Shown piece after piece: positions 22,266 through 63,567 of a stretch of DNA of 64,000 nt (position 1 is the first letter of the stretch; each line of letters opens with the position of its first letter). The translations under genes were made by a program, and so were the position numbers. Source of the stretch: Paraescarpia echinospica (taxonomy: Eukaryota; Annelida; Polychaeta; Sabellida; Siboglinidae); assembly GCA_020002185.1 (NCBI GenBank), contig CM034533.1, forward strand, positions 45,460,562-45,524,561. The letters run 5' to 3'. The notes below the pieces were generated by a model. That model ran no database searches, was not told the DNA's origin, and saw only the letters and a program-made list of their open reading frames with translations.

Positions 22266-22337
22266 ATGGCAAATACACCACAAGTACAACAGGGCAGTAC
22301 CCATGAACTGAATGAGATGACCTACGAACAGTTACAG
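22266..22337 (+). CDS. Exon 1 (start exon) of a modular type II membrane receptor-like gene
   Basis: ATG in the context ACCACTGATGG opens 24 codons ending exactly in phase 0 at CAG/GTATGT. The peptide starts MANTPQVQQGSTHELNEM and ends TYEQLQ. That ending repeats in later exons as GYEQLAQ, which is why I assign it to the same gene. There is no signal peptide: residues are polar throughout, consistent with a cytoplasmic N-terminus. TYEQL is a YxxL motif (possible phosphotyrosine or sorting signal; inference). The start is chosen because no other in-frame ATG lies nearby and the donor is strong. The first exon could still be longer, or the gene could have an upstream non-coding exon. Next exon candidates are 22968 and 28180, both phase 0. 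Confidence 0.65.
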
Positions 22338-22648
22338 GTATGTTATTAACTGTATCTAGCTTACACCCACCTGTGATTCAAAACAAACCAAATGCACCAG
22401 TTATCACTGGTCACATTACAGAATTTTGATCATAAACTCATTCACAGTGGCACCATCTGGAGAGTTGCCTGCTACTCAGTTTGCACAGATTTGGGTTAAA
22501 CAATAATATAACTTGCCTTATGCCAGCATTTTATACAAGACGTTCGTTTCTTTGCTCATGTGTTCTATGACTGCTACAGGCCTTTGTCCACAAACTGGTA
22601 TTCTGTTGACACTGTCATGCTTACAGTAGGATAAATATATGAATGCGT

Positions 22649-22822
22649 CCCATGAGGCATGACATCGTAGGTGTTAGAGCTTCAGTTTCTCAATCAAGAG
22701 AATCTGGCTTCAAATCCTCTTGCTGGTGTTTTGAAGTTTGGAAATTTAGTTCACTCCGCATTGTCTCTGTTCACTCAACTGGATGAATGAGTACATGGCT
22801 ATAGATAGTGGTTATTTATGCA
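22649..22822 (+). mobile_element. tRNA-derived SINE in intron 1
   Basis: GTAGGTGTTAGAGCTTCAGT and GGCTTCAAATCCTCTTGCTG look like A- and B-box regions of a tRNA-like head (about 22649-22740). They are followed by CACTCCGCATTGTCTCTG and CTGGATGAATGAGTACATGG. Only its 3' part survives in unit I (2190-2255). Confidence 0.6.
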
Positions 22823-22967
22823 TGTTTGTGCAGTAATTGCAACATGGCTGAATGCTTCTCAGAGAAATCAAGATGTTGAAATAAACAGATCTGTCAGGGA
22901 TGAAGTATAAAACATCCTATGGATTAGATACCGCACTAAAAAGTCTTTATACTTTTGTTAAATCCAG

Positions 22968-23048
22968 GCAGCACAAAGAGACAGAAGACAACCAGTTTAC
23001 CAATTCATCTCTGGATATGAGCAGTTTGTGCCGATATGTGATCAGTTT
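22968..23048 (+). CDS. Candidate optional exon with PVYQF...GYEQF tail motif
   Basis: 27 codons between acceptor TTAAATCCAG and donor TTT/GTAATAC, phase 0 at both ends and open. The core QPVYQFISGYEQF aligns residue by residue with QPVYTVNPGYEQL at 28180, and the donor GTAATAC is identical to that exon's donor. The exon therefore arose by duplication. The exonic -1 base is T rather than G, so the donor is weak; the exon may be alternative or skipped. The unit I copy (2378-2450) is broken, which argues that this copy is the better preserved. Residues RDRR upstream of the motif are basic, as in a cytoplasmic tail. Confidence 0.45.
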
Positions 23049-23049
23049 G

Positions 23050-23904: not shown

Positions 23905-25243
23905 ATTCAGGGGTTGTGGTGGTGATGTTAGTGGTGATATTGTTGGTTGTGATGGCTGTGGTTGTGGAGATGATGTTGTTAGTTGTGATGGTTGTGGAGG
24001 TGTTGTTCTTGTTGATTCTGATTGTTGTGGTTGAGGTGGTATTGTTCTTGTTGGTTGTGATGGTCGTGGTTATGATGTTGGGGTGCTATTGTTGGTTGTG
24101 ATGGATTTGGTTTTGGAGGTGTTGTTATTGTTGTGGTTGTAGAGGTATTGTTGTTGTTGGGGGGTTGTTCAGGGGTTGTGGTGGTGATGTTAGTGGTGCT
24201 ATTGTTGGTTGTGATGGCTGTGGTTGTGGAGATGTTGTTGGTTGTGATGGTTGTGATTGTGGAAGTGTTGTTCTTGTTGGTGGTTGTGGTTGTGGAAGTG
24301 TTGTTCTTGTTGATTGTGATGACTGTGGTTTAAGAGGTATTGTTGTTGTTGGTTGTGATGGTTGGGGTTGTGGAGGTGTTGTTCTTATTCATTGTGATGG
24401 TTGTGGAGGTGTTGTTCTAGTTATTGATTGTGATGGTTGTGGTTGTAGAGGTTTTGTTGTTGTTGGTTGTGATGGTTGTGGTTGTAGAGGTTTAGTTGTT
24501 GTTGGTTGTGATGGTTGTGTTGTTCTTGTTGATTGTGATGGTTGTGGAGGTTTTGTTTTTATACATTGTGATGGTTGTGGAGGTGTTATTCTTGTTATTG
24601 ATTGTGATGATTGTGGTTGTAGAGGTTTTGTTGTTGTTGGTTGTGATGGTTGTGGTTGTGGAGGTGTTGTTCGTATTGATTGTGATGATTGTGAAGGTGT
24701 TGTTCTTGTTATTGATTGTGATGGTTGTGGTTGTAGAGGTTTTGTTGTTGTTGGTTGTGATGGTTGTGGTTGTGGAGGTGTTGTTCGTATTCATTGTGAT
24801 GGTTGTGAAGGTGTTGTTCTTGTTATTGATTGTGGTTGTAGAGGTTTTGTTGTTGTTGGTTGTGATGGTTGTGGTTGTGTCGATCTTGTTGATTGTGATG
24901 GTTGTGGTTGTAGAGGTATTCTTGTTGTTGGATATAATGGTTGTGGTTGTAGATGTGTTGTTTTTGTTGATTGTGATGGTTGTGGAGATGTTCTTGTTAT
25001 TGATTGTGATGGTTGTGGTTGTATTCTTGTTGTTGGTTGTGATGGTTATGGTTGTGGATGTGTTGTTTTTATTTATTGTGATGGTTGTGGTTGTGATGGT
25101 GTTGTTATTGTTGATTGTAATGGTAGTGGTTGTGGAGGTGTTCTTGTTATTGATTGTGATGGTTGTAGTTGTAGAGGTATTGTTGTTGGTTGTGATGGTT
25201 GTGGAGGTTTTGTTCTTATGGTCAGTGGTGGTTGTGGTGACTA
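23905..25243. repeat. G/T-rich low-complexity array (unit II copy)
   Basis: Same TTGTGATGGTTGTGGTTGT-type units as 3258-4338, longer and internally re-amplified. Its 359-codon Cys/Gly/Asp/Val frame on the plus strand and an Asn/Thr frame on the minus strand reflect the 3n period only. Strong strand asymmetry (G and T on plus). It lies within the predicted intron between 23048 and 28180. Confidence 0.9.
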
Positions 25244-26104: not shown

Positions 26105-27690
26105 TGTGTACAGTTAACCGTGCTTAATGGTCAACTTGGCAATACAGCCACTTCACAATTAAGGTCACACTTGTCATCCTAGGACTGTGCCAAATAACAG
26201 TAAACTATTGGCAACTACTCCTGCATATAGTCACCTCACCATTAAGGTCACACTGGTCACCGTAGGACAGTCCCAAATAACAGTAAAGTATAGGCAACTA
26301 CTCCTGCATATACGTTCACCTCACAACTTAGGTCACACTGGTCACCCTAGGACAGTCCCAAATAACAGGAACGTATAGGCAACTACTCCCGCATATACAG
26401 TCACCTCACAACTAAGGTCACACTAGTTACCCTAGGACAGTCCCAAATAACAGTAAAGTATAGGCAACTACTCCTGCATTTACAGTCACCTCACAATTAA
26501 GGTCACACTGGTCACCCTAGGACAGTCCCAAATAACAATAACGTATAGGCAACTACTCCTCCATATACAGTCACCTCACAACTAAGGTCACACTGGACAC
26601 CCTAGGACACTCCCAAATAACACTAAAGTATAGGCAACTACTCCTGCATATATATTCACCTCACAATTAAGGTCACACTGATCACCCTAGGACACTCCCA
26701 AATAACAGTAAAGTATAGGCAAATACTCCAGCATATACATTCATTTCACAATTAAGGTCACACTGGTCACCCTAGGATACTCCCAAATAACAGTAAAGTA
26801 TAGACAACTACTCCTGCATATATATTCACCTCACAATTAAGGTCGCACTGGTCACCCTAGGACAGTCCCCAAAAACAGGGAAGTATAGGCGACTACTCCT
26901 GCATATACAATCACCTCACAATTAAGGTCACACTGGTCACCCTAGGACACTCCCAAATAACAGGAAAGTATAGGCAACTACTCCTCCATATACAGTCACC
27001 TCACAACTAAGGTCACACTGGTCACCCTAGGACACTCCCAAATAACAGTAAAGTATGGGCAACTACTCCCGCATATAAAATCACCTCACAACTAAGTTCA
27101 CACTGGTCACCCTAGGACCTAGGACAGTCCCAAATAACAGGAAAGTATAGGCAACTACTCTTGCATATACAGTCACCTCACAACTAAGGTCACACTGGTC
27201 TCCCTAGGACAGTCCCAAATAACAGGAAAGTATAGGCAACTACTCCTGCATATACAGTCACCTCACAAGTAAAGTCACACTGGTCACCCTAGGACACTCC
27301 CAAATAACAGTAAAGTATGGGCAATTACTCCTGTGTATACATTCACCTCACAATTAAGGCCACACTGGTCACCCTAGGACAGTCCCAAATAACAGGAAAA
27401 TTTAGGCGACTACACCTGAATATACATTCACCTCACAATTAAGGTCACACTAGTCACCCTAGGACAATCCCAAATAACAGGAAAGTATAGGCGACTACAC
27501 CTGAATATACGTTTACCTCACAATTAAGGTCACACTGGTCACCCTAGGACAGTCCCAAATAACAGGAAAGTGTAGGCAACTACACCTGAATATACATTCA
27601 CCTCACAATTAAGGTCACACTGGTCACCATAGGACAGTCCCAAATAAGAGTAAAGTATAGGCGACTACTCCTGCATATACAGTCACCTAA
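26105..27690. repeat. About 86-bp minisatellite, long allele (about 18 copies)
   Basis: Same unit as 4700-5235 (GGTCACACTGGTCACCCTAG, GACAGTCCCAAATAACAGTA, CAACTACTCCTGCATATACA). Copy-number contrast with unit I is roughly threefold. Non-coding, intronic. Confidence 0.95.
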
Positions 27691-28179
27691 CAGTTGGTCC
27701 CTTCTGTCTGGTGTCTACGGTAGGGGAAGTAGAATATCCCACACAGGGGATAAATGTGTAACCTGTCGTGGACTCACTGAGTGGTGGTCTCTATCTCTAA
27801 CCCACAATTGCTCCTAGCGGCTGGAGTTACTTCCAGGTCGGGTGCGTGAGAAACGCCGAACAGGCAGCATATACACTGTGTCATTGGACCACCTGGATCC
27901 TATATGAATGTACATACATTCAAACATACCATAGATAGTAACACCACTGACTGATGTGAATCAAGCTAATGAAGTAGCAAGTCTACATTTTTATCTCCTT
28001 CACAATTTTAGAACCTTTAATGCTTGTTTTAGTGATGTAATATGTTTTCATAATAACAAGGAGCAGGCATCGATACACAGAGCTCAAGGATGTTGGTCGT
28101 ACAATAAAATTAAGCGACATAATAAGTGTAGTTGCACTAACTGTAGAATGACTATAATGCATCTCTTCTTAACCAACAG

Positions 28180-28242
28180 ACACAAGTGAACAAACAACAG
28201 CCTGTGTATACAGTCAATCCTGGATATGAACAACTGGCACAG
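28180..28242 (+). CDS. Tail exon with NPGY and YEQL motifs
   Basis: 21 codons between acceptor TTAACCAACAG and donor CAG/GTAATACC, phase 0 both sides: TQVNKQQPVYTVNPGYEQL then AQ. Within 12 residues it carries VYTV (YxxV, also YTVN of the pYxN type), an NPGY tetrapeptide (NPxY class, recognised by PTB-domain adaptors in other receptors) and YEQL (YxxL). No other domain. The identical phase and length class with 22968 and 28830, and shared PGY/F-x-Q residues, mark it as one of a set of serially duplicated micro-exons. Motif function is inferred from known linear-motif classes; the exon itself is well supported by splice borders and paralogy. Confidence 0.7.
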
Positions 28243-30080: not shown

Positions 30081-30348
30081 ACGACCCGATCACAGAATCA
30101 TGGCCGCAAACAGCACAATCACAGGTCAGCGGAACAGCATCAGGTTGGACACCACGGTCAGTTTTCTGTCCGGTGTCAGTCCACTGTCCGACCATCTGTC
30201 TTGATCGTTCCATCAAGTGTGCCAGAAACACCAAGCTCACAAGAGCAGAGAAAGTTGAAGTCTCGTCTTCGTAGCTACTGCATCTGTGTAACAGTGACTG
30301 TGTTCGCAGCGATCATTGCAACCGTTGTTATCGCAGTCGTCCTTTCTG
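30081..30348 (+). CDS. Transmembrane (signal-anchor) exon
   Basis: Acceptor CTGTTGTTAG, donor TTTCTG/GTAAGA; 89 codons plus one base, entering phase 0 and leaving phase 1, with no stop. Residues 1-60 are polar and Ser/Gln/His/Pro-rich. KLKSRLRS is a basic cluster directly before a hydrophobic run (about residues 66-89: YCICVTVTVFAAIIATVVIA then VVLS). Positive charge on the N-side of a single membrane span, with no upstream signal peptide, predicts N-terminus inside and C-terminus outside. The phase change from 0 to 1 fits exactly the phase-1 EGF exons downstream: the split codon becomes G+AG (Glu) with exon 46213. A broken copy exists at 13690-13874. The join to 46213 spans a 15.9-kb intron and is inferred. 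Confidence 0.7.
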
Positions 30349-31433
30349 GTAAGAAACTGATTCATTAATGTTGTTTCGATTAATCATTGTTGTCAGTGAC
30401 AAATTTCGAGGCTATATTTGGCGGCGATAGATCGTAGAAATTGGTGGTGATTAAAAGTTGATAAACAAGTGAAATTACTGATTGATAAGTATTATTCTTG
30501 CCTTAATATCATTCATAAAGTAGCAGTAAACATATAGTGAGTAGCAGTTGTGCTTAAAGTTAATTAGACAAAATATTTTTGAACACTTTGGACTAGTGAG
30601 TGATAATAGGGTAAATAAGCCTACGATAAGTTTGTAAACAAGATTTAACAAACCTCATTATGTGGTAGAATATACAGGTGATAAAGTAACAAACATAAAA
30701 CTACGTACATAAGATGATATATGTGTAAGCCAGTACCTGCTAGACATTTTGATTAGGTAGCTTTGTTGTTAAAATTAAGCATTTGCGATAACCGGGCGAA
30801 CTAAGTTTTTATAGCTAGTGTCCCATGTATTCACTAGGGCACGATATAACCTAAATAGCGTAAAGTAATTGATTGTATTTAAATTAGGTAACTACCGGTA
30901 ACGTTAGCATTTCTGAGGCTGATAGGATAGATAGTCAGCTGTGACTATAACCAAAAACTGTAACCGAAGTAAGCATGGCAATCTTACATAAAGTGTAACA
31001 TTTGTGCACAGTAAACAGTCTTCTTAAATACTGCATAGACAGTGAATAGTATAAACACAGTTGACTAAACCATTTTAAATAGCTAATTAGATTATTATTA
31101 TTAAATAAATTCTGAGGGAGGGGAAGAAATTGTAGGATCGACGGCAGGAAATGTGACAGGCGTGAAGGTGACAGGGGAGAAAGTGACCGTAGAGAAAGAG
31201 GTAGGAGGGAAAAAGAGACGGGAAAGGAGAGAAGGAAATGCAATGGGAGAAAAGATGACGGGAAGAAAGGAAGTGAGAGTAAATGTGACAGAAGAGTAGT
31301 TGACAGGGACGACTACAGGAGGAAAGGTGACAAGAGAAACAGCATCAGGAAAGAATGGAATGGACGAGATTGTGACAGGAGAGCAGAAGACAGGGGAAAA
31401 AGACTACAACCAGACAGATGCAAACCAGAGAGT

Positions 31434-31952
31434 GTGTTTATGGGCGACTCTATTCTGAGAAAGACAGATAAGACACTAAGCGAAGGGGAGGACGTCGTTG
31501 TTTGTTTGTCGGGGGCTAGAATAGAACATGTGACTGGAAGGGTAGAGAAGGTATTAATGCATGTCAGGGGAGGGTCTATACTAGTACACGTAGGGACAAA
31601 AATGCGGATAGGGAGGGAACAATTTAACAACTGGGATAGTACAGAAGCACAGTTAGTGAGGAAGTTAAAGAAGACAAGAGTTGAACAGATTATTCTGTCA
31701 GGAATTTTGCCAGTAATGGGAGGAAAGGGGCCAACATATATAAACTGCAAGAGGATGGCGATCAACGCACTAGTTAAGCAGATGTGTAAAGAAGAGGGGT
31801 TGGGATTAGTAGACTTATGGGGATACTCTGTTGGGAGGGAAGATATGTACATGAGAGATGGCCTCCATTTAAGTGGAAAGGGGCCAGCAGTTTTCTCAGG
31901 GAACATGCTGCAATATGTTGACAGTGGGACAGGCTGCATCTGTTTAAACTAG
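31434..31952 (+). CDS. CR1 ORF1 with SGNH/GDSL-esterase-like domain
   Basis: Open for 172 codons in the retained frame. It has a GDSIL block I near the start (MGDSILRKTDKTL), the block III region VHVGTKMRIG (GTK where active enzymes have GxN), and DGLHLSGKGPAVFSGN with the Asp-x-x-His pair of block V. Upstream (31108-31430) the same DNA is purine-rich and encodes Arg/Glu/Asp/Lys-rich sequence in a broken frame, probably the N-terminal part of ORF1. Esterase-type ORF1 proteins are known from CR1-group LINEs and are thought to aid membrane or RNP association. The ATG is only the first in the surviving frame, not necessarily the true start. Confidence 0.7.
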   Translation: MFMGDSILRKTDKTLSEGEDVVVCLSGARIEHVTGRVEKVLMHVRGGSILVHVGTKMRIGREQFNNWDSTEAQLVRKLKKTRVEQIILSGILPVMGGKGPTYINCKRMAINALVKQMCKEEGLGLVDLWGYSVGREDMYMRDGLHLSGKGPAVFSGNMLQYVDSGTGCICLN

Positions 31953-32039
31953 ATTCGTAGAGGGGATTCACAGAGAAGCCTGAAACTGGAGGCATAAAGA
32001 CACCAGAAATAAATCAGCAAAGAACAGCCTGGAAAACTG

Positions 32040-33757
32040 TTCTGAATCAGGATATATATGCATTTGTTTAAATGCAAGGAGCATAGTAAACAAAAGAAGT
32101 GAACTAAACATTACGGTAGAAGATATTGACCCTCACATAATAGGTTTAACAAGATTTAACAAGATTGCCGAAATTGTTTTGTTTAACCGAATCATGGGCC
32201 ACCACTGATATATCAGATGCCGAATTGGGACTAACAGGCTATGTAATGTTCAGGAAAGATAGAATAGGAAGAAGGGGAGGTGGAGTTATTTTACATGTTA
32301 AAGAATCTATCCAGGCTTATGAAATAAAATTAGAAAGAGAAGCAGATTGCGAAGAAGCTGTTTGGTGTAACATATTTACAGGAATAGTTACAGGAAACTC
32401 AACGTTAACGGTGGGGTTAGTTGAAGTCCAAACATAAGCATAGAAGAGAACGAGAAAGTACAAAGCGCTATAAGGGAAGTTAGCAAACGGGACTGTATTA
32501 TTATGGGATATTTTAACCATGGTCATATACAATGGAAATCTCTACAGAGTACAGGGAGTGAGGACCACAAGTTTTTAGTCCTAATATAAGAGTTTCCTTA
32601 CTCAATATGTGCTAGAGCCAACCAGGGGTGAGAATGTGTTAGACATAGTTTTGTCCTCGCATAATGAATTAGTTGACAATGTCAAATTATGTGAGCCATT
32701 GGGAAGTAGTGATTACAACCAGATATATTTTACCATCAAAGTAAAATCAGAAAGAAATAATAAAAAGCAGTTCAGGGGAAATTTCCACGAAGAAAGATAT
32801 CAGGAAATATTTAGCGAACATAGACTGGAACAACACACTGAACAATAAGACAGCAATAGAATGCTGGAATATCTTAAGAGTGAAATAAAGTGCATCATCG
32901 ATACATTTGTTCCTTTGAAAAAACAAGGGAAACGGTCCAGAAAGAAATACTTCTCGAAAGAATCCATTAGAACAATTAAGCACAAAGTAATGATGTGGAA
33001 GTCATATAGACGTACTGGAAATAACGACGACTACAACATTTATAAAGAAGCACTAAACCAAGCTACAACTGAAATTAGAAGAGAAGCTACGAAAAAAAAT
33101 TAGCTTGTACTATAAAACAAGACAGCAAGAGTTTGTATGCATATGTTCGGAGCAAACAGAAAGTTCAGGTTAAGGTCGGTCCTCTAGAAGATTTTGCTGA
33201 AAATATAATAGCAGAGGGATTCTTAATGGCAGAAGACCTAAATGAGTATTTTAGTTAAGTGTTTTCCCGGGAAGATATTAGTTCACTGCCAGTACCAGAG
33301 ACTAAGTTCAAGGGGGCAGAATCAGACTATTTAGGACAGTTAATTGTAACCCCGGAAATGGTAGCTAAGAAATTTAGGGCTACGAAGGATAACAAATCAC
33401 CTGGAGTGGATGGAATTCCGCCCAAACTACTTTTGGAAATTGTAGAACAAATTAGCATACCACTTGCAACAGTTTTCAAATTGTCATTAGAAGAAAAATG
33501 GCTGATTGACAGAAGACAACGGGTAGTTGTTGATGGGGAGGGTTCAAACAGGAAATCAGTTTTGAGTGGGGTACCACAGGTATCAGTACTGGGACATATA
33601 TTATTCTTAATATATAAACGAGTTGGACGATGATATAACAAGCAAGGTGGTGACATTTGCGGATGACACAACATTTTTTAGAAGGATTAAACGTGATGGA
33701 GATAGACAGCATTTACAAGATGATCTTGACAAGTTGATCAAATGGTTTGAAAAATGG
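32040..33757 (+). pseudogene. CR1 ORF2: endonuclease and partial reverse transcriptase
   Basis: Broken into several frames. The N-terminal endonuclease region is readable (TESWATTDISDAELGLTGY, RKDRIGRRGGGVILHVKESI, an FNHGHIQW block where GDFN is expected, and GSSDYNQIYFTIK near SDH). The linker follows (KYFSKESIRTIKHKVMMWKS), then RT fingers (KDNKSPGVDGIPPKLL). RT then jumps from LSLEE to KWLIDRRQRVVV and SVLSGVPQVSVLGHILF, so roughly a hundred residues including the first catalytic Asp motif are deleted. VVTFADDTTFF (catalytic box) is present near 33650. It ends at WFEKW, where the inserted element starts, and resumes at 36958. Confidence 0.8.
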
Positions 33758-34681
33758 GCCAAGAGGCCCTAAAGTCCTTTGGACTAATCAGGCATGTGAG
33801 AGCAGGAAAGTCATTTCCGAGGAACATTTGCACGCGGCACGGTGCGGCAAACTGGGGAAGAAGGGGGGGTCTGGATTGGAACTCAGATTTTTTTTAAAGA
33901 CATCATTGTGATGCAATCTAGTGTACTTTCACACTGTTTTTGTCTAATCCTGTAACTTCCATTTTATATAAAATCACAAACATAATGCATAGAAACACTA
34001 CATTTGGGATTTTATTAATCAAAAGTGCAAGCATACAGTTCCCTGCACATAATTGTAAAAGCACATACTTTTCATATCACACAAAAAACCAGAAGCAGTG
34101 TATACTACATTATCAAAACTACAACATTACACAAGTGGTCAATGTAAAAAAATACACAAAAATGCTTTAAATAACCATGGTTTATTAAAATGATAATTAT
34201 AATGTACAGTACACTGAAATTCACACACAAATGTCCACATCTACTAGTGTTCATTGAAACCGTAAACTTTACAAGTGTTCATTGTGGACATGTGACTTCA
34301 CTTGTTTTCTTGCCTGTGCTTGATCCTGGCACACACAGCTTTCTTTCTCTTCTCTGCCTGAGCAAGGACTGGGGATTGGAGGTTGACAGATTTCAGTCTT
34401 TTTGAGTTTGACACTTTGCCTCTTGGGAAACCTGTTCAGCTGCTTTTCTCTTGCTTCTTCAAATTCAACTCGTCCCCTCTCTGTACAACATCCTTCTTGG
34501 TGCACGCCATATCCCCTAAACATGTTCATATTAACAACATCAGGATAAATTTAATTCTAATTGTTATTTAATTAATAATAACCTAAACCATACGTTAAAG
34601 TGAACAGCCGTACTTTGTTAACATATTATCGCCCATCCAAGAAAACTTACTAAGTTTTGGCATATACTTATTTTTATCCAA

Positions 34682-34722
34682 AATAATTTATAAACCCATC
34701 TAGGATGGGTTTATAAATTATT
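34682..34722. repeat. 41-bp perfect hairpin
   Basis: AATAATTTATAAACCCATC and its exact reverse complement are separated by TAG. It lies inside the 3.2-kb insertion. Confidence 0.95.
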
Positions 34723-35701
34723 GCCAAAACTCTGCTTATTATTCGCATTTACATATCGTTAACGGTGCTGTATTATGCCATGACCCATAACGCCAGCGAC
34801 GTGAGCATACGCCGGCGCCGTAATGTAAGCCCCATGGCATAGCCATAGCCTAGGCCATTACAACGCCTCGCGTGGCAGGCTAAACGATCTAATATTTATT
34901 GAAACTACGATCTTAAAACCACTCGACTGCTACGTTCATTCCGATAATTCTGTAATTGACTCATACAAGAATGTTTGAAATAAGAGCGGACAACTTACTG
35001 TAAACCGTAGCTCATGCTTCGTTCGACTGAACGTAACTGTGAACTTCGAAAACAAACTTACAGCCGCAACTTATTTGCCGCCCAAACTTATGCACGGATT
35101 GTAAGCTGGGCCGTGATTCGCAGTTTCTGGCCATTCAGAATGCGGCTTGCTTTTAAAAAAGGACGACGATCACGAAATTTAATTTTTTTATTGTCGATGT
35201 TTGCCAAGTCACAACCCCCCTATATTTAAAAAAATCGGATTTGGACAAATCACAGAAACGGCCAAATCGAGTTCATGAACCGCGGAAATCCGCGTTTTCG
35301 CGGAAGAATCTCATGCCTGATTAATATGTGACCCCCGGCTGACCAAAATGAGTGATAAGTCAGACAATTTTAACATTGTTTTCTTTCATCCTTGTAAAGG
35401 TTCGGTAGAGTGCTTTACACGGTTTAAAAAATTATGACTGCTACAAAAATTGGCGAAGTTATGGAGCATTGAACATGGTAGGGGTCAAAATGTGAAATTT
35501 TTTTTGTGTGTGTGGGGTCTTTATACAGATTTCTTGTGTACAGTGACACTACCACATGAAATGTATATGCAAAATTAGATCAAACGTTGCTGAACAGTTT
35601 AAAAAAAGGCAAAATGTATTTTTTTTGGAAGTTTTGGGGTCCTTGGAGGCCCTAGGGAGCGCTTAGAACGATTCAATCAAATACAGATTTCTCGTGCATA
35701 G

Positions 35702-36062
35702 TTGCAGTGCCCTAAGATATGTCTATGCAAAATTAGAGGGAAAAAACATGTACACAAATGTAAATCATGTATAAAACAGGGCCAGGTTGTGTCAGCCTTC
35801 TTCTCATGTGATGTAGAGGTACAGCAAGGAGAAAACTTGTCTCCTTTGTTATTTGCTATTTACCTGAATAATTTTGAACACTGTTACTCATAATTATAAG
35901 GGACTTGACATGGCAGCTGGTGAAATTTACAACAACCTTAGTGATGATGATGATGTAGACATTTTCTTGAAAATGTATGTTCTACTATATGCTGATGACA
36001 CTAGAATGATTAAATCAAATACAGATTTCTTGTCTATAGCGGAACTATGTCAACTCTTCTAA
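35702..36062 (+). pseudogene. Reverse transcriptase fragment of another LINE
   Basis: Two frames together give VEVQQGENLSPLLFAIYLNN (the QG-x-x-LSPLLF box) and MYVLLYADDTRMI (catalytic YADD), with an unusual Asp-rich segment between. Nothing upstream or downstream of the palm is preserved. Distinct from the CR1 copies in this window. Confidence 0.65.
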
Positions 36063-36957
36063 TTGTTGACATCTGGTTGTTTCAGGTGTCAACTATATTG
36101 TGAATCTGTAATTATAGTCTATACTGATACAATTGATTTACATAGTACCATGTCTACACAAGGCATGGCAAGTGTAAACAGAACAGTAGAATGCATTTGA
36201 TATCAATAAAGTGTAGGATATTTCACTCTATAGTTATCCAGAATATTAATTTTCTATGTTTGTCACTGACAGGTGACAATACATCTTTAACCAATAGACA
36301 TCACAGTCACACCATTTTATAATAATTAAATGAACATCAAAATAAACACAACTGGCAATTATAGAAAATCAATAGTTTTAAAGATACAGTTTAAAAGCTG
36401 CAGGCAACTGAGTTTAACATGGGTCAAATGTGTCTGCTCTGCCTGTGACCAATTAAAGATTAGTCAAGGTCTCAATGGAACAATAGCACTAGGCTGCAGG
36501 GTGGAGTGAGGATGCTGGCACATTACACAAAATCTACTGTTGGGGGTGGTCTCAAGGGCCCTTCTCAAAACCACATCACTAGATAATGTAAAACTTTTGC
36601 ACTTTGGTGGCCCCTTAGAATGATTCAATCAAATACAGATTTCTTGTGTATAGTGGCAGCACCATACGACACATCTATGCAAAATTAGAAAAAAGTTGCT
36701 GAACAGTTTTTGAAAAAAATAGGCAAAATGTGACAAATTACCAGCTTTTTGGGCCCTTGGGGGCCCTACGGGGTCCTTAGAGTGATTCAATCAATTACAG
36801 ATTTCTCGTGCATAGTAGCAATACCGTAAGATACGTCTATGCAAATTAGAAAAAAAGTTGCTGAACAGTTTCTGAGATATGGCAGCTAACGGCGGACGGC
36901 GGACACAGAATGATGGCAATAGTCCCTTGGACCTTCGGCCCAAAGGAATAAAAATGG

Positions 36958-43757: not shown

Positions 43758-44255
43758 AGTCAGAAGTCAAAGATATCTTCTATGCAGCACTGGCACATGT
43801 AGTTGAGCCTGTGCCTACTTTGGACAAGTTAATCCTACTTGGGGATTTCAATGCTCGAGTGGGGAATGACAAAGAATCCTGGCCTGATGCTATAGATACT
43901 TTTGGCATTGGGAAAATAAATGACAATGGATAACGTCTCCTAGAGCTTAGTGCTAAATTCCAACTATGTGTCGCTAACATCTACACACAATGTACAGCTA
44001 ATCTCAAGGTATCCTGGATGCACCCAAGATCTAAGACATGGCATCAACTAGACCTTCTACTTGTTCGACGATGCAACTTAAACGGTGTCACCAAAACTAG
44101 ATCATACCTCAGTGCAGACTGCGACATGGGTCATAGTCTTGTCATCTGAAATATGAAACTACTGCCGAAGTCCTTCCACAGTGGAAAAAAACATGGTCAA
44201 CCAAGGGTTGATATAACCAAAACTTGTATCCAGCAACTGTCACTTGGCAGTGTTA
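43758..44255 (+). pseudogene. LINE endonuclease, C-terminal half
   Basis: Resumes the ORF cut at 38926: DKLILLGDFNARVGND (catalytic GDFN block), WPDAIDTFGIGKINDNG, a stop where Gln/Arg is expected, then LLELSAKFQLCVANIYTQ, WMHPRSKTWHQLDLLLVRR (HQLDL block) and YLSADCDMGHSLVI (D-x-GH in place of SDH). It ends abruptly at 44255 where the third copy of the receptor-gene segment starts, so the two are fused by rearrangement. Confidence 0.8.
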
Positions 44256-45115
44256 TCAAATTATAATAATTTGGACATTTTTGTAATAATACTACTGTAC
44301 ACCCTCTATTATATCTTTTGGATAGCCATTTTGTAAAAGTTAAATTTTTCTTTACCAATTTTTATCCCAGCCAAATTGACAAAAAGTCTCCCATATATTT
44401 AGCTAATCTAAATATTCTTAGCTGCTAACTAGATGACAAATCAATGGTTTATGGAAGAAAACAGAACAGATTTAACAATAGTCATTATTAGCCAGGCAAT
44501 AGAATTTACCATTCACCAATATTTTATTAACGGTTATTTTCTATGAATAAATGAGCCATAAATCATCAGCTAGTATGAATTCAGATTACACTGCGAACAT
44601 AGTCAACTGAAACATATTTAAATCTCTTCTTCACCAGCGAAAACAAACGGACATACAACCATCTGTTTACAAGGTTATCCCTGGATTTCAGCAGGCTGTA
44701 CATGTGATTAATTTGTTATGGAGAATTACCAACTGCCATTACCAACTACAATCAAGAATAATATCCCAGCAATTTATTAGAATAATCTTGTTAAAGACAC
44801 ATAATTTAAATTGCATGCACACCGCTATTGTGATAGAAAGCATGATGTCACTAATGCCTATTCTTTTCACTTTACCAGTCACCAAATGGAGAATGTTGCT
44901 TTAGTTTGTATCGCCAAATTTGTTTTGCCACTGTAACTACTAAAAATGTCGCATTCGCATGATGCACTGTACAACATTATAGCAGTTGTTATAAGCATCA
45001 GGGCTGTAGGTGCTTATTGGTCAAGCACTGGGGGCATGTCTCAAAATGTCAGCCATCGGGAACTAAGATTTCACTGGAATCTGGCACTTAGAAAAGAAAT
45101 TCGGAGTAAACCAGA
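44256..45115 (+). repeat. Third partial copy of the receptor-gene segment (like 28450-29310)
   Basis: Collinear with 28450-29310: shared GTACACCCTCTATTATATC, CATATATTTAGCTAATCTAA, the tail exon, and CCAGTCACCA.ATGGAGAATG. It includes a copy of exon 28830. It ends at the Penelope-like relic, whereas unit II continues to the membrane exon. Confidence 0.85.
44638..44703 (+). pseudogene. Duplicate of tail exon 28830, donor lost
   Basis: Acceptor CTTCTTCACCAG is intact and the frame is open (RKQTDIQPSVYKVIPGFQQA then V). The strong donor CAG/GTAAGT has become CATGTGATT by a small deletion, leaving at best a weak GTGATT. It keeps a tyrosine (SVYKV) where the unit II exon has Asp. As placed, downstream of the membrane exon, it could not be in the tail of the modelled gene without reordering, so I treat it as a relic. 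Spliced use elsewhere cannot be excluded. Confidence 0.6.
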
Positions 45116-46175: not shown

Positions 46176-46212
46176 ATTTATACATGTATGGTATATCTCT
46201 CCTGGGTTACAG

Positions 46213-46320
46213 AGTTGTGTGCTGATGGCATGTGTGTAAACGGTGGGACATGTGAAGATACCATGGGTGGTGTCAAGTGCCACTGTAAACTTGGCTATGA
46301 CGGACTGACCTGTGAAAATG
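46213..46320 (+). CDS. EGF-like exon a1 (first, distinct copy)
   Basis: 36 codons, acceptor CTGGGTTACAG, donor AAATG/GTGAGT, phase 1 at both ends. Six cysteines in the order C-x4-C-x5-C-x8-C-x-C-x8-C: CADGMCVNGGTC, then EDTMGGVKCHC and KLGYDGLTC. There is no DxNE-type calcium-binding start. It differs from a2-a5 (shorter first loop, KLGYDG for KDGYNG), so it is the oldest or terminal member. The split codon joins exon 30081-30348 (Glu) and exon 47603 (Asp). Predicted extracellular, nearest the membrane. Confidence 0.8.
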
Positions 46321-47602: not shown

Positions 47603-47719
47603 ATGTTACGATGTGTAGTGGTGACGTCACGTGTGCTAACGGTGGGACATGTGAAGATACCATGAGTGGCTTCAAGTGCCACTGTAAAGATGGCTACAAT
47701 GGACTGACGTGTGAAAATA
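47603..47719 (+). CDS. EGF-like exon a2
   Basis: 39 codons, acceptor CTGGGTTACAG, donor AAATA/GTGAGT, phase 1-1. [17 protein letters not shown] then [11 protein letters not shown] and [10 protein letters not shown]-x5-C-x5-C-x8-C-x-C-x8-C, a canonical EGF-like module. First member of cassette 1; its end codon splits as A+GA with EGF-b. Confidence 0.85.
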
Positions 47720-49428: not shown

Positions 49429-49566
49429 GATATTCGTTCTGCTGGAGTGAGATGCCGTGTAAAAACGGTGGTACATGTATGGACCTACCCAATGATGAAT
49501 ACATGTGCATATGTCTAGAGATGTGTGGATGCTCAACAGAGAAGCCTTTCGGCAATTGTACAATAG
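49429..49566 (+). CDS. EGF-like exon b1
   Basis: 46 codons, acceptor CTCTTTTGTGCAG, donor ATAG/GTGTGT, phase 1-1. YSFCWSEMPCKNGGTCMDL, NDEYMCICLEMCGCST and EKPFGNC give eight cysteines: an EGF-like core with an extra C-G-C pair before the last cysteine. Distinct from EGF-a. Followed by CBM14-like exon 49931. Confidence 0.8.
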
Positions 49567-49930: not shown

Positions 49931-50137
49931 ATGAAGCCAACATCTGTAAGCCTGAGAATATGAAGCTTCATCACGTTGCTCATCCATATGACTGCTCAAA
50001 GTACATTGACTGCAGTGGTCCGGGCGACACGTTTGTCAAAGAGGATTACGTCTGGCATTACGAGGAAAGGCTCGTGTATAATCCTGCGAATGGTTTGTCC
50101 GCAGAGCTGGGGGATGTCGGATGCGCTGCACTAGTTG
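49931..50137 (+). CDS. CBM14/peritrophin-A-like exon 1
   Basis: 69 codons, acceptor TTTTGCTTCCAG, donor GTTG/GTAAGT, phase 1-1. ICKPENMKLHHVAHPYDC, SKYIDC, and later WHYEERLVYNPANGLSAELG then DVGC. C-x15-C-x5-C and the G/R-L-V-Y-N-P signature fit chitin-binding peritrophin-A modules. But only four cysteines are present: the fourth and fifth family cysteines are missing (WHYEE in place of the C-P-x-G part). The fold is likely retained, chitin binding unproven. This copy has EERLVY where the others have EEGLVY. Confidence 0.75.
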
Positions 50138-50869: not shown

Positions 50870-50986
50870 ATGTTATGATGTGTAGTGGTAGTGTCACGTG
50901 TGCTAACGGTGGGACATGTGAAGATACCATGAGTGGCTTCAAGTGCCACTGTAAAGATGGCTACAATGGACTGACCTGTGAAAATA
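50870..50986 (+). CDS. EGF-like exon a3
   Basis: 39 codons, phase 1-1, as a2 but [11 protein letters not shown] (Ser for Asp in the first loop). Starts cassette 2. Confidence 0.85.
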
Positions 50987-52743: not shown

Positions 52744-52881
52744 GATATTCGTTCTGCTGTAATGAGATGCCGTGTAAAAACGGTGGTACATGTATGGACC
52801 TACCGAATGATGAATACATGTGCATATGTCTAGAGATGTGTGGATGCTCAACAGAGAAGCCTTTCGGCAATTGTACAATAG
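52744..52881 (+). CDS. EGF-like exon b2, with an extra cysteine
   Basis: As b1, but the second residue after the first cysteine is Asn and Trp is replaced by Cys (SFCCNEMPC), giving nine cysteines, an odd number. This may leave a free thiol or allow an intermolecular disulfide, or it may signal relaxed constraint on this copy. Confidence 0.8.
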
Positions 52882-53002: not shown

Positions 53003-54185
53003 AACCACTCCTAATTAATTTGGCTTTTAGCCTAAACATGGAACGGAGTTATGCGTGTTTGCATTTAAGGAATTATTAAGGTTCTACACTGAACATGGTT
53101 CAGCTATGCACGTCGCGTTTTTAGATGCATCAAAGGCGTTTGATCGTGTCAACCGATATAAACTTTTAACGAAACTAGAACAACGAAATGTACCGAACTA
53201 TATCTTAAGAGTACTCAGCAATTAATTCAATAATCAATGTGTATGCTTACGATGGGGAAATACCTACTCGGACTTCTTCTCGGTAGGCAATGGTGTTAAG
53301 CAAGGTGGGAAGTTATCCCCTTTGCTTTTTAACATTTATATGGATAATCTGAGTATACAACTGCACAAAAAACAAATCGGTTGTAGTCTTGGTAACATGG
53401 TTGTTAATCACCTTTTATACGCCGATGATCTACTTCAGTTTGCACCTTCTGCTAAAGGACTACAAACACTACTTGACATGTGTTACTCATATGGATGTGA
53501 GCATGACGTGCAATACAATGCGGGTAAATCCCTGGTCATGTACTTTGAATCTAGAATATCAAATCTGTCTAAAGAAATGACATTAGGAGGAAAGAAGCTA
53601 AACTTTGCCACCTCCTGTAAATATCTTGGACATGTCATTTCTAATAACTTGTCTGATGAGTCTGACATGCAAGCCAAAGTGAGACTTTTGTATGCCAAGA
53701 GTAATATGTGACGTCAAAAGTTCCACTTTTGTTCAACTGCTGTAAAAAAATAAGCTATTTACAGCGTATTTTGGTAATATCTATATGTGTCCGTTATGGG
53801 TGAACTTTAGAAAAGTTAATTTTCAGCAATTAGTTGTTGCATATAATAACTCTTTCAGAATATTGAACAATTTGCCCATGAGATGTAGAGCTAGCCACAT
53901 GTTTGCTACAGCTAATGTCAGCTCGGGTAAATGTGTAATCAGAAAGGCTATTTTTAGTTTAATGAATAGGATTGACATGTCTTTGAATCCCATTATTTAT
54001 AGCATTAAAACTAGCGACGTTTATTGTACTTCGAAACTGCGGCACCAGTGGGTCCGGGATTTATATAATTTTTAAACATATTGTTCTTATCGATGTATTT
54101 TTATATTTATTTACATACTTTTATTGATGTACTTGTATATATGGACATGATGATTGTCTGAAATAAATACATTATTATTATTATT
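53003..54185 (+). mobile_element. 5'-truncated LINE, cassette 2 copy
   Basis: 1183-bp insertion, absent from cassette 1, between 9-bp duplications ATTACTTTA (52994-53002 and 54186-54194), ending in AATAAATACATTATTATTA. RT motifs: AMHVAFLDASKAFDRVN (first catalytic Asp), GVKQGGKLSPLLFNIYMDNL, LLYADDLLQFAPSAKG (catalytic YADD), YNAGKSLVMYF, and a C-terminal LNNLPMRCRASHMFATANV part. Stops interrupt it (SN-stop-FNNQ; TGA after SNM; AAAAAAATAA slip). LINE clade not assigned; TAA-type tails are known in I-group and related elements. Confidence 0.85.
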
Positions 54186-54437: not shown

Positions 54438-54644
54438 ATGAAGCCAACATCTGTAAGCCTGAGAATATGAAGCTTCATCGCGTTGCTAATCCATATGACT
54501 GCTCAAAGTACATTGACTGCAGTGGTCCGGGCGACACGTTTGTCAAAGAGGATTACGTCTGGCATTACGAGGAAGGGCTCGTGTATAATCCTGCGAATGG
54601 TTTGTCCGCAGAGCTGGGGGATGTCGGATGCGCTGCACTAGTTG
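54438..54644 (+). CDS. CBM14/peritrophin-A-like exon 2
   Basis: 69 codons, phase 1-1, as exon 1 but LHRVANPYDC (Asn for His) and EEGLVYNP. Lies 253 bp after the LINE insertion, so the insertion enlarged the intron without touching splice sites. Confidence 0.75.
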
Positions 54645-55376: not shown

Positions 55377-55493
55377 ATGTTATGATGTGTAGTGGTGACG
55401 TCACGTGTGCTAACGGTGGGACATGTAAAGATACTATGAGTGGCTTCAAGTGCCACTGTAAAGATGGCTACAATGGACTGACCTGTGAAAATA
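55377..55493 (+). CDS. EGF-like exon a4
   Basis: 39 codons, phase 1-1; [12 protein letters not shown] (Lys for Glu after the third cysteine). Starts cassette 3. Confidence 0.85.
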
Positions 55494-57204: not shown

Positions 57205-57342
57205 GATATTCGTTCTGCTGGAATGAGATGCCGTGTAAAAACGGTGGTACATGTATGGACCTACCCAATGATGAATACATGTGCATATGTCTAGAGATGT
57301 GTGGATGCTCAACAGAGAAGCCTTTCGGCAATTGTACAATAG
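57205..57342 (+). CDS. EGF-like exon b3
   Basis: 46 codons, phase 1-1; SFCWNEMPC. Eight cysteines as b1. Confidence 0.8.
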
Positions 57343-57463: not shown

Positions 57464-58646
57464 AACCACTCCTAATCAATTTGGCTTTTAGCCTAAACAT
57501 GGAACGGAGTTATGCGTGTTTGCATTTAAGGAATTATTAAGGTTCTACACTGAACATGGTTCAGCTATGCACGTCGCGTTTTTAGATGCATCAAAGGCGT
57601 TTGATCGTGTCAACCGATATAAACTTTTAACGAAACTAGAACAACGAAATGTACCGAACTATATCTTAAGAGTACTCAGCAATTAATTCAATAATCAATG
57701 TGTATGCTTACGATGGGGAAATACCTACTCGGACTTCTTCTCGGTAGGCAATGGTGTTAAGCAAGGTGGGAAGTTATCCCCTTTGCTTTTTAACATTTAT
57801 ATGGATAATCTGAGTATACAACTGCACAAAAAACAAATCGGTTGTAGTCTTGGTAACATGGTTGTTAATCACCTTATATACGCCGATGATCTACTTCAGT
57901 TTGCACCTTCTGCTAAAGGACTACAAACACTACTTGACTTGTGTTACTCATATGGATGTGAGCATGACGTGCAATACAATGCGGGTAAATCCCTGGTCAT
58001 GTACTTTGAATCTAGAATATCAAATCTGTCTAAAGAAATGACATTAGGAGGAAAGAAGCTAAACTTTGCCACCTCCTGTAAATATCTTGGACATGTCATT
58101 TCTAATAACTTGTCTGATGAGTCTGACATGCAAGCCAAAGTGAGACTTTTGTATGCCAAGAGTAATATGTGACGTCAAAAGTTCCACTTTTGTTCAACTG
58201 CTGTAAAAAAATAAGCTATTTACAGCGTATTTTGGTAATATCTATATGTGTCCGTTATGGGTGAACTTTAGAAAAGTTAATTTTCAGCAATTCGTTGTTG
58301 CATATAATAACTCTTTCAAAATATTGAACAATTTGCCCATGAGATGTAGCGCTAGCCACATGTTTGCTACAGCTAATGTCAGCTCGGGTAAATGTGTAAT
58401 CAGAAAGGCTATTTTTAGTTTAATGAATAGGATTGACATGTCTTTGAATCCCATTATTTATAGCATTAAAACTAGCGACGTTTATTGTACTTCGAAACTG
58501 CGGCACCAGTGGGTCCGGGATTTATATAATTTTTAAACATATTGTTCTTATCGATGTATTTTTATATTTATTTACATACTTTTATTGATGTACTTGTATA
58601 TATGGACATGATGATTGTCTGAAATAAATACATTATTATTATTATT
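57464..58646 (+). mobile_element. 5'-truncated LINE, cassette 3 copy
   Basis: Same insertion, boundaries, ATTACTTTA duplications and length (1183 bp) as the cassette 2 copy, with the same TGA after SNM and the same AAAAAAATAA slip. It therefore descends from the same insertion by cassette duplication and not from a second retrotransposition. Confidence 0.9.
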
Positions 58647-58898: not shown

Positions 58899-59105
58899 AT
58901 GAAGCCAACATCTGTAAGCCTGAGAATATGAAGCTTCATCGCGTTGCTCATCCATATGACTGCTCAAAGTACATTGACTGCAGTGGTCCGGGCGACACGT
59001 TTGTCAAAGAGGATTACGTCTGGCATTACGAGGAAGGGCTCGTGTATAATCCTGCGAATGGTTTGTCCGCAGAGCTGGGGGATGTCGGATGCGCTGCACT
59101 AGTTG
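58899..59105 (+). CDS. CBM14/peritrophin-A-like exon 3
   Basis: 69 codons, phase 1-1; LHRVAHPYDC and EEGLVYNP. Four cysteines as in the other copies. Confidence 0.75.
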
Positions 59106-59837: not shown

Positions 59838-59954
59838 ATGTTATGATGTGTAGTGGTGACGTCACGTGTGCTAACGGTGGGACATGTGAAGATACCATGA
59901 GTGGCTTCAAGTGCCACTGTAAAGATGGCTACAATGGACTGACCTGTGAAAATA
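59838..59954 (+). CDS. EGF-like exon a5
   Basis: 39 codons, phase 1-1; [28 protein letters not shown]. Starts cassette 4. Confidence 0.85.
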
Positions 59955-61667
59955 GTGAGTAGTGTACAGAATTGATGAATAGTATATTAACTATTTGACT
60001 TATGAACAATGTGTGGAATACATGTTGTCTAATCACTTTTATAAGACTGAGGAGCGTAGTCGGCGGAAGAGCTTACTGAAGCCATTCAGGTCTTTCGCAA
60101 TTTTTTGATAGCTGCATCTGGTTTATATTCAGAATGAGATAGTCATGATCCTTTTAAATACAATTCTCAGTCCTTCCAATACACATGCAAGTCAAATTGT
60201 TTGGCCCATGGTGTGAATGATGGAACGGTTCTTGAAACAGATTTTCAGTGATTATTTTAATCACACTATTTTAATGTTCCCACCCAATGGACAAAATGAC
60301 GATGATATTACATTGTTTCAGTGTCAGGTACTAATGTTGTAACGATGTTGGAAACTATAGATGGATGTGTAATTTTAATCAACATTAGGTTTTCACATTG
60401 TTTCGACGTCAGGTTTCAATGCAGAGGCAATTTTAAATACTGGTTGGATTTGAAAGTTTGATCAATATCATGTTTTATTAATGTTTCGACGTCTGGTTTC
60501 AGTGTCGCAACAATGTTGAAAATGGGATGTATTTGAAAATTGCACCAACGTTGTGTTTCTACATTGTTTCTACATCAGATACACATGCAGGCTTGCACGC
60601 ACGCACGCGTGCACACTCACTCACAGACACGCACACACGCTCACTTTTATTCATGCGTCTCTCACAAACACCCTATGTCCCTCCCATGTCCATCAGCTGA
60701 CCCTCTCCCACCCCCGACACCAGTCCACCCACCCAGCTGCCTGCACCACCAGCACAAATTTCTACTTCTGTATTTCTCTCCTTCTGTAGACAGTTCTCCT
60801 TGTTCTTTCTTCCCTTTGTCTCTCATTCCTGTGTCAGTGTTGCTGCATGTGTGTCTAGTTTAGTCAGTCATTCAGTCTTCTCATAATCTTGTAGAACCAA
60901 CAACCTGTTCTGAGGTCACCTGACAGCATGTCGATGCATATACCCCAAAGAAAGCCTATTGTTTCCCGTTAAGGATTCATACATCAATATTGCTAGAGAT
61001 TAAATTTGATCGGAATCGGAGTTTAATCAATTTGTGTATACCAAGGTCAAAGTCAGTGACCATGACTCCAAAATAGTATTCAACTGCTATTGCATACATA
61101 TGAATAGAACAATATCTTAGCTTTATCTTAAGACGAACATTAGCATTTTAGCACCATACCTGCCAACGTTATATCAATTTATATATTATGAGGTAACATG
61201 AAATTGCGTAAACATGACCCAAAATGCACCTAAAATTACTCTCTAACTCAAGATCTTGTCAAGTCGTACTCTAATTTTTTGCAAGCAAGGTGTTGATATA
61301 AGGACCTGCCTAGAGATCAAATTTGATCAAAATCGGGATTTATTTATTTTTGGGTATATTATGTCAATGTCAATGACCTTTAAAACAAAATATTATTAAA
61401 TTGTCATGTGAAATATATATATATATTTGTGGATAGAACATTGTCTTAAAATTATTTTAAGACCAAAACCAGCACTTTAGGACCACTAGACCCACAGTTA
61501 TGTTTACATGTACAGGTAGCAAACTATTTGCCTTCTTTTATCATTAACATGCAATAATTCAAAAAATAATTGACTCAAATTTCATAAAAATTTGAATGGG
61601 TCAACATTTTGTTGGCCTTTTCTTGCTTGATTTCATATGGAATGACCCAATTTGCTCTTTTGTGCAG

Positions 61668-61805
61668 GATATTCGTTCTGCTGGAGTGAGATGCCGTGTA
61701 AAAACGGTGGTACATGTATGGACCTACCCAATGATGAATACATGTGCATATGTCTAGAGATGTGTGGATGCTCAACAGAGAAGCCTTTCGGCAATTGTAC
61801 AATAG
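61668..61805 (+). CDS. EGF-like exon b4
   Basis: 46 codons, phase 1-1, identical in readable sequence to b1 (SFCWSEMPC), unlike b2 and b3. Confidence 0.8.
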
Positions 61806-61926
61806 GTGTGTCAATATATTCTTTTTCATCATGGAAGCATAATGGTATTAAATGTGGTTCTCCTTAGATGTGTGTTAATGTATCTAAGACTAGCACATTG
61901 AATTGATCTGCTGTTGTATTACTTTA

Positions 61927-63108
61927 AACCACTCCTAATCAATTTGGCTTTAAGCCTAAACATGGAACGGAGTTATGCGTGTTTGCATTTAAGGAATTAT
62001 TAAGGTTCTACACTGAACATGGTTCAGCTATGCACGTCGCGTTTTTAGATGCATCAAAGGCGTTTGATCGTGTCAACCGATATAAACTTTTAACGAAACT
62101 AGAACAACGAAATGTACCGAACTATATCTTAAGAGTACTCAGCAATTAATTCAATAATCAATGTGTATGCTTACGATGGGGAAATACCTACTCGGACTTC
62201 TTCTCGGTAGGCAATGGTGTTAAGCAAGGTGGGAAGTTATCCCCTTTGCTTTTTAACATTTATATGGATAATCTGAGTATACAACTGCACAAAAAACAAA
62301 TCGGTTGTAGTCTTGGTAACATGGTTGTTAATCACCTTATATACGCCGATGATCTACTTCTGTTTGCACCTTCTGCTAAAGGACTACAAACACTACTTGA
62401 CATGTGTTACTCATATGGATGTGAGCATGACGTGCAATACAATGCGGGTAAATCCCTGGTCATGTACTTTGAATCTAGAATGTCAAATCTGTCTAAAGAA
62501 ATGACATTAGGAGGAAAGAAGCTAAACTTTGCCACCTCCTGTAAATATCTTGGACATGTCATTTCTAATAACTTGTCTGATGAGTCTGACATGCAAGCCA
62601 AAGTGAGACTTTTGTATGCCAAGAGTAATATGTTACGTCAAAAGTTCCACTTTTGTTCAACTGCTGTAAAAAATAAGCTATTTACAGCGTATTTTGGTAA
62701 TATCTATATGTGTGCGTTATGGGTGAACTTCAGAAAAGTTAATTTTTAGCAATTCGTTGTTGCATATAATTACTCTTTCAGAATATTGAACAATTTGCCC
62801 ATGAGATGTAGCGCTAGCCACATGTTTGCTACAGCTAATGTCAGCTCGGGTAAATGTGTAATCAGAAAGGCTATTTTTAGTTTAATGAATAGGATTGACA
62901 TGTCTTTGAATCCCATTATTTATAGCATTAAAACTAGCGACGTTTATTGTACTTCGAAACTGCGGCACCAGTGGGTCCGGGATTTATATAATTTTTAAAC
63001 ATATTGTTCTTATCGATGTATTTTTATATTTATTTACATACTTTTATTGATGTACTTGTATATATGGACATGATGATTGTCTGAAATAAATAAATTATTA
63101 TTATTATT
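61927..63108 (+). mobile_element. 5'-truncated LINE, cassette 4 copy (least decayed)
   Basis: Same insertion point and ATTACTTTA duplications. This copy has FGFKPKHGTELC uninterrupted at its 5' end, TTA in place of the TGA after SNM, and no A-slip, so its RT frame (62246-62749) runs on through LRQKFHFCSTAVKNKLFTAY. It has a private stop shortly after (AATTTTTAGC for AATTTTCAGC). The premature stop before FNNQ is shared by all copies. Confidence 0.9.
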
Positions 63109-63360
63109 ATTACTTTACTAAATTAGATTGATTCACCTTGTGGTAGTGACGTACTACATTAGGTGTTGTGTGCTTTGTAAGATAATTTAATCAGCTAGTT
63201 CGTCCTTACAGACAACACAACATATATGTTTGTACACATATATAATATGTGTACGAACGTTATAATAATAATGTCTGCTTCTGTTGTTATCATTTATAAT
63301 GGAGAATTACCACTAATTGAGGTCATAATGGTAACAAAGTTACAAATATTTTGCTTCCAG

Positions 63361-63567
63361 ATGAAGCCAACATCTGTAAGCCTGAGAATATGAAGCTTCA
63401 TCACGTTGCTCATCCATATGACTGCTCAAAGTACATTGACTGCAGTGGTCCGGGCGACACGTTTGTCAAAGAGGATTACGTCTGGCATTACGAGGAAGGG
63501 CTCGTGTATAATCCTGCGAATGGTTTGTCCGCAGAGCTGGGGGATGTCGGATGCGCTGCACTAGTTG
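63361..63567 (+). CDS. CBM14/peritrophin-A-like exon 4
   Basis: 69 codons, phase 1-1; LHHVAHPYDC, EEGLVYNP, donor GTAAGTTGAAAC as in exon 1. The last exon in the window. The intron continues to 64000 with normal cassette sequence, so further cassettes or a terminal exon are expected beyond the window. Confidence 0.75.

Follow-up and report, generated by a model that had tools for sequence, protein, structure and literature searches.

A Paraescarpia echinospica locus encoding a putative type II membrane protein with tandem EGF/EGF/CBM14-like cassettes

The window analysed here is a 64,000-nucleotide stretch of the tubeworm Paraescarpia echinospica (assembly GCA_020002185.1, contig CM034533.1; C3:45460562-45524561), and its plus strand carries 17 exons of a gene predicted to encode a type II membrane protein. 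Three phase-0 tail exons are followed by one membrane exon, which passes from phase 0 to phase 1, and by 13 phase 1-1 ectodomain exons, namely an EGF exon (A0) and four cassettes of EGF-A, EGF-B and CBM14-like exons, the last of which ends at 63567. On sequence similarity, the gene belongs to a multi-gene family of type II membrane proteins in tubeworms that has yet to be named. The exons are listed below; P0121 is the Lamellibrachia satsuma hypothetical protein LSAT2_024802 (936 residues), found by a profile search, and bit scores in the list are to its tail repeats.

22266..22337, plus strand: tail exon T1; first ATG, MANTPQ...MTYEQLQ, ends in phase 0; the P0121 alignment starts at its YEQL
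28180..28242, plus strand: tail exon T2; ...PVYTVNPGYEQLAQ, phase 0-0; 29.7 bits
28830..28895, plus strand: tail exon T3; RKQTDIQPSVDKVIPGFQQAVQ, phase 0-0; without tyrosine; 14.6 bits
30081..30348, plus strand: membrane exon TM; linker with a basic cluster, one hydrophobic span, phase 0 to 1
46213..46320, plus strand: EGF exon A0; phase 1-1; borders and frame, Pfam
47603..47719, plus strand: EGF exon A1; borders and frame, Pfam
49429..49566, plus strand: EGF-B exon B1, an eight-cysteine EGF variant; borders and frame, Pfam
49931..50137, plus strand: CBM14-like exon C1, four cysteines; borders and frame, Pfam, profile
50870..50986, plus strand: EGF exon A2; borders and frame
52744..52881, plus strand: EGF-B exon B2; borders and frame
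54438..54644, plus strand: CBM14-like exon C2; borders and frame
55377..55493, plus strand: EGF exon A3; borders and frame
57205..57342, plus strand: EGF-B exon B3; borders and frame
58899..59105, plus strand: CBM14-like exon C3; borders and frame
59838..59954, plus strand: EGF exon A4; borders and frame
61668..61805, plus strand: EGF-B exon B4; borders and frame
63361..63567, plus strand: CBM14-like exon C4; borders and frame; the array goes on past the window

All 17 exons are preceded by AG and followed by GT, and they join in one reading frame without a stop, in agreement with an earlier note on this DNA that had claimed a single strand, a single frame and GT/AG borders. That note counted eighteen exons; 17 were found at its positions and the eighteenth was not. 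On 120 kb of downstream sequence, the array comprises A0 plus 14 EGF-A, ten EGF-B and ten CBM14-like exons from 46213 to 97777 (window coordinates), with AG/GT borders in 35 of 35 exons and with some EGF-A exons lacking B and C partners. An EGF-like exon at about 100480-100613 follows, then a six-cysteine CBM14-like exon at 101111-101331 with a stop near 101331, and this terminal exon and stop resemble the C-termini of the L. satsuma proteins P0001 and P0004. The gene appears to end near 101331, array and gene reaching about 37 kb past the window, which probably holds the first ~42 kb of a gene of roughly 79 kb. Among the loci and models compared, the window locus has the most cassettes of the close type (10 of 41 matches, all ten at 94% or above).

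Protein comparison supports most of the exon order. A first protein search ranked L. satsuma P0001-P0004 at the top and Ridgeia piscesae P0024 and P0031 lower. P0121 reads, in order, three tail repeats, TTRSQHHGRKQ leading into a membrane span, a SEA domain, a Thr-rich stalk, and EGF and CBM14-like modules. The spliced tail and membrane exons align to P0121 residues 20-157 in one gapped alignment (47.6% identity, pairwise expect value (E) 3e-28) that spans junctions 22337/28180, 28242/28830 and 28895/30081. The P0121 membrane segment scores 38.3 bits against exon 30081-30348 and at most 10.5 bits against shuffles (n=20). A profile of the three P0121 tail repeats matches five places in the window at 14.6-45.5 bits (T2, T3, a copy of T3 and two relics); the best score in 20 dinucleotide shuffles of the window was 13.0 bits, and the T3 match lies barely above it. 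The ectodomain series A0-A1-B1-C1-A2 aligns to P0121 at 54% identity (E 9e-88), and the A/B, B/C and C/A junctions lie within alignments to P0001 and P0121, 47719/49429 also being in the P0001 alignment. Of five junctions that the earlier note had singled out for checking, these alignments cover the three in the tail and 47719/49429, leaving 30348/46213 unsupported. Between the aligned blocks, P0121 holds about 290 residues (SEA, stalk and one EGF/CBM14-like set) that the window model lacks.

P0121 is an automatic, imperfect gene model whose residues ~811-936 are retrotransposon-like, and its best genome matches are dispersed copies of that end, which swamp the matches of the whole protein. 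Support was therefore sought in genomic paralogues. The genome searched comprises 1,083,790,144 bases on 3111 contigs; the published description of the P. echinospica assembly gives 1.09 Gb in 14 pseudochromosomes (PMC8476170). On contig C206, a paralogue runs from a tail exon through a TM exon and SEA pieces to a Thr-rich stalk. Its TM exon is 65% identical to that of the window, with the same acceptor and donor, six bases shorter and open in frame, while its tail exon is paralogous to T3, has the same borders and carries SVYDVIPGFEQ. Contig C542 has matches to the P0004 TM, two SEA pieces, EGF, EGF-B and CBM14-like modules in order within 10 kb, an order read from sequence matches. Combined by eye, the matches give nine genome places where a span/SEA-type match is followed on the same strand by a CBM14-like one; individual SEA matches in this count are weak (up to E 2.3), and some of the places, on unplaced contigs, could be haplotype duplicates.

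Five L. satsuma models, P0121 and LSAT2_013529, LSAT2_031011, LSAT2_024675 and LSAT2_001202 (P0004, P0160, P0165 and P0200), place a tail and a single span before the EGFs, as the window gene does. All five have a Thr-rich stalk (by eye) and three have a SEA domain. P0121 shares with the window gene its tail repeats, TM exon sequence, EGF-B and CBM14-like modules; unlike the window gene, none of the five, as modelled, has a ten-cassette array, and P0160 ends before any CBM14-like module. The tubeworm type II EGF/CBM14 family is our own grouping from these models, defined by an N-terminal tail and single span before EGF (and CBM14-like) modules and by similarity to P0121, features that the window gene also has. 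The layout of P0121 together with the C206 and C542 paralogues points to such a family, so the gene is not a singleton. The layout described there (a tyrosine-motif tail, a type II anchor and EGF/EGF/CBM14-like cassettes) is borne out by the same parts in P0121 and by their order in the paralogues. No named family of this layout was found in the open-licence literature, matching that note's own statement, and the tubeworm family would combine known parts in an unusual layout. Further candidates for SEA/CBM14 type II genes lie close to the window locus, at C3:45.70-46.60 Mb, and on the unplaced contigs C206 and C542. CBM14 is abundant genome-wide (139 matches; 150 of 675 first-look candidates scored), with many matches clustered on C5 and C9.

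The tail exons of the window are related to the repeat PVYxVIxxYE(Q/H)L, and the P0121 unit, PVYxVIxxYE, has two tyrosines. The P0121 tail holds five YxxPhi motifs; of 5000 letter shuffles, 0.1% had that many. Tyrosine motifs occur in further type II tails as well (YDEI and YKTI in P0165, NPDY in P0200). GYxxPhi and YxxPhi are known adaptor signals, and the YxxPhi motif present in the window tail is a putative binding site for adaptor mu-subunits. The 'repeated NPxY' once ascribed to the tail does not hold up: there is a single NPGY, in T2, none in P0121 and one NPDY in P0200, and NPxY is not conserved as a tail repeat across these three. An immunoreceptor tyrosine-based activation motif is defined by two YxxL/I with 6-12 residues between them. 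The two YEQL of the window lie in separate exons, 16 residues apart, outside that spacing; in P0121, two of the three repeats have two YxxPhi motifs, two residues apart. A tail-only protein search over lengths up to 1.75 x 500 residues scored none of 202 candidates, a null that is no proof of a unique tail because the range left out P0121.

In the ectodomain, Pfam PF00008 (EGF) matches three stretches of the spliced protein (346 residues) above its cut-off, at 52.1 bits, and EGF-B alone reaches 31.4 bits. Relatives pass PF01607, the Pfam model for CBM14 (P0001 at 24.2 bits, P0200 at 31.0 bits). A profile of 12 such domains, six-cysteine ones from relatives included, matches solved chitin-binding proteins, namely chitin binding beak protein 3 (E 1.3e-6) and a 25 kDa polyphenol-binding protein (E 1.9e-10). 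A predicted AlphaFold model of P0006 (8 sequences) has a mean predicted local distance difference test score (pLDDT) of 56, and the structural look-up, mainly of EGF residues 109-228, lists no CBM14 fold. A collagen-like region, a mark of class A scavenger receptors, gave no Pfam match in the 346-residue spliced protein.

The locus has a history of duplication. The 5' part of the gene was copied several times, leaving relic tail exons, a broken TM copy, a T3 copy and an inverted copy upstream; the inverted copy (96.6%), of at least 11001-14866, sits upstream of the window. The copies within the window are as follows.

2376..2440, plus strand: tail exon relic, part of a decayed copy upstream; reading frame lost past the acceptor; matches the P0121 tail-repeat profile
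13688..13875, plus strand: decayed TM exon copy; frame broken; 76.7% over 266 bases including some intron
22962..23030, plus strand: relic tail exon AAQRDRRQPVYQFISGYEQF; 45.5 bits to the P0121 tail repeats; weak donor
44244..45115, plus strand: second copy of T3 and flanking intron; 88.9% over 892 bases; exon copy at 44638-44703, donor changed
53226-54075, 57687-58536 and 62150-62749: reverse-transcriptase fragment copies in three of the four cassette introns, duplicated along with the cassettes

The unit in which the cassette multiplied measures 4.46 kb; introns of neighbouring units are 98.3% and 99.0% identical, and later units are less alike. Units 2-4 carry the reverse-transcriptase fragment in the intron between EGF-B and CBM14, and unit 1 does not; the insertion therefore preceded those duplications. 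In the window member, SEA domain and stalk seem to have been lost, and recent tandem duplication seems to have raised the number of cassettes. Such duplication would make the ectodomain rod differ in length from gene to gene, and perhaps from one individual to another. Long tandem satellites occupy 1-1721, 15480-16126, 19483-21464 and 26142-27692 (units of 39, 46, 95 and 85 bases). Similar minisatellites flank both 5' copies (3306-4330 and 23989-25204; 4745-5244 and 26142-27692), consistent with an old regional duplication. The 15.9-kb intron before A0 holds remnants of retroelement-like open reading frames (ORFs), identified by eye, at 31116-33633 and 40122-40877. Rfam at gathering scores gave no matches within the window.

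The best explanation of the locus is probably a type II membrane protein that acts as a receptor taking up chitin-like or N-acetylglucosamine (GlcNAc)-rich material, the uptake step by itself being less sure. If transcribed as one gene, it would encode a cytoplasmic N-terminal tail from small phase-0 exons, a basic linker and one signal-anchor span, followed by an ectodomain of EGF-A/EGF-B/CBM14-like cassettes ending in a six-cysteine CBM14-like domain. Outside the cell, the CBM14-like/EGF rods might bind chitin or another GlcNAc-rich glycan, with avidity arising from the many copies. Tyrosine motifs in the tail (YxxPhi, GYxxL) could recruit clathrin adaptors or SH2 proteins, and bound material would then be taken up and sent to lysosomes.

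Several observations weigh against this reading, among them the imperfect state of the P0121 model. In the tail, T3 lacks a tyrosine, and the two YxxPhi motifs of the window copy are equalled or passed by 17% of letter shuffles. The CBM14 (peritrophin-A) domain has six cysteines. C1 keeps four of the six aligned cysteines, as do C2-C4, and none of the window exons has the full set. C1 also scores 16.3 bits (E 0.011) against PF01607, under the cut-off of 22.1, which is why the window domain is called CBM14-like here. The CBM14 domain named in the earlier note thus falls short of Pfam's cut-off. Nor is there strong evidence of purifying selection. Between cassettes, the ratio of nonsynonymous to synonymous differences (pN/pS) is 0.57 for A (14/14 exons), 1.2 for B (10/10) and 2.3 for C (9/10, a shorter exon being left out), all on few differences; against the C206 paralogue, the substitution-rate ratio (dN/dS) is 0.60 for the TM exon (z about 1.6) and 1.19 for T3 on five changes. 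Outside the window, a stop codon interrupts the frame of one of the ten CBM14-like exons of the whole array (75550-75756), and comparison with P0001 suggests a broken frame in the last EGF-like exon; this copy could therefore be in decay or mis-assembled. A SEA profile built from four relatives found nothing significant in the window or the 244 kb around it, the plus strand of 30349-46212 has no 30-residue stretch rich in T/S/P, and a membrane exon joined straight to an EGF occurs in none of the relatives seen. Because stalk and SEA are common in relatives and neither was found here, the direct splice 30348/46213 is unproven. This junction is the weakest claim: a loss of SEA and stalk in this copy is one possibility, two separate halves another. 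A P0165-like stretch at 45584-45862 (21% identity) was considered as a SEA domain and rejected at only 3.8 bits from the SEA profile.

It is possible, though on the unlikely side, that the same protein serves as a membrane tether, a mucin-like glycocalyx protein that holds the chitin tube or cuticle to secreting or epidermal cells, its tail serving only to sort it to the right membrane. SEA domains and Thr-rich stalks are typical of cell-surface mucins, and the type II models of L. satsuma have them, as noted above. Vestimentiferans make chitin tubes, and papers on P. echinospica and R. piscesae describe, in general terms, an expansion of gene families with EGF domains and of chitin-binding ones (PMC8476170, PMC9921365). 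The repeated tyrosine units of the P0121 tail nevertheless exceed what a plain tether would need, although the window copy has fewer. Uptake is favoured over tethering because of the tyrosine motifs in the tails of P0121 and other members. The one-gene layout is common to both explanations, and the probabilities attached to the explanations in this text overlap and do not sum to one.

We consider it unlikely that the locus comprises two transcription units, a decaying 5' type II fragment (T1-TM) that happens to lie upstream of an independent EGF/CBM14 gene. The several decayed copies of the 5' part, a TM exon followed by no detected SEA or stalk, and the long retroelement-bearing intron before A0 would all fit such an arrangement, but T1-T3 and TM are intact with all their splice sites, and their order and strand match the family. 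Upstream of A0, moreover, a scan of 30349-46212 at lower stringency gave no first exon that encodes a signal peptide and ends in a GT[AG]AG donor, while allowing any GT[AG] donor gave four starts; a strict scan found none there, but also none in 20 control slices, and so says little. Least probable of all is a cluster consisting wholly of pseudogenes, which the downstream stop, the apparent frame break and the weak selection signal would suit, but each of the 17 window exons has an open frame, splicing can skip a symmetric 1-1 exon that holds a stop, and, if this is the published assembly, built from Oxford Nanopore and Illumina reads (PMC8476170), base errors in long repeats are plausible.

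Comparable layouts occur outside tubeworms. Lingula anatina P0005 (named fibropellin-1) and Amphiura filiformis P0023 have, by hydropathy, an N-terminal tail, a single span and an EGF array like the window gene; the Lingula tail holds YANV and YESL, and the Amphiura tail lacks tyrosine. Unlike the window gene, their listed Pfam end domains are SRCR in P0005 and F5/8 type C in P0023, with no CBM14. Class A scavenger receptors and the asialoglycoprotein receptor are endocytic receptors of type II whose N-terminal tail carries the signals, a layout like that predicted here, but their ectodomains are collagen/SRCR or C-type lectin and lack EGF or CBM14. Nimrod, Eater and Draper are phagocytic receptors with repeated EGF-like ectodomains, and so share EGF repeats and possible phagocytosis with the window gene, yet they are type I, with a C-terminal tail and no CBM14. 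Peritrophins and obstructor proteins share the CBM14 repeats and bind chitin, but are secreted, without an anchor or signalling tail.

To our knowledge, and without a census, few surface receptors are known for symbiont uptake or control, or for holding the chitin tube, in vestimentiferans. A more speculative and quite unlikely proposal is that the family is a vestimentiferan-specific, rapidly evolving birth-and-death family of type II pattern-recognition receptors for engulfing symbionts, microbes or GlcNAc polymers and delivering them to lysosomes. If true, gutless tubeworms would have receptors with tyrosine-repeat tails and variable-length EGF/CBM14 arrays for their bacterial symbionts or for microbes. 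The family supplies placed loci with testable tails and ligand domains, and it could help a tubeworm to hold chitin, or to recognise and take up particles or microbes.

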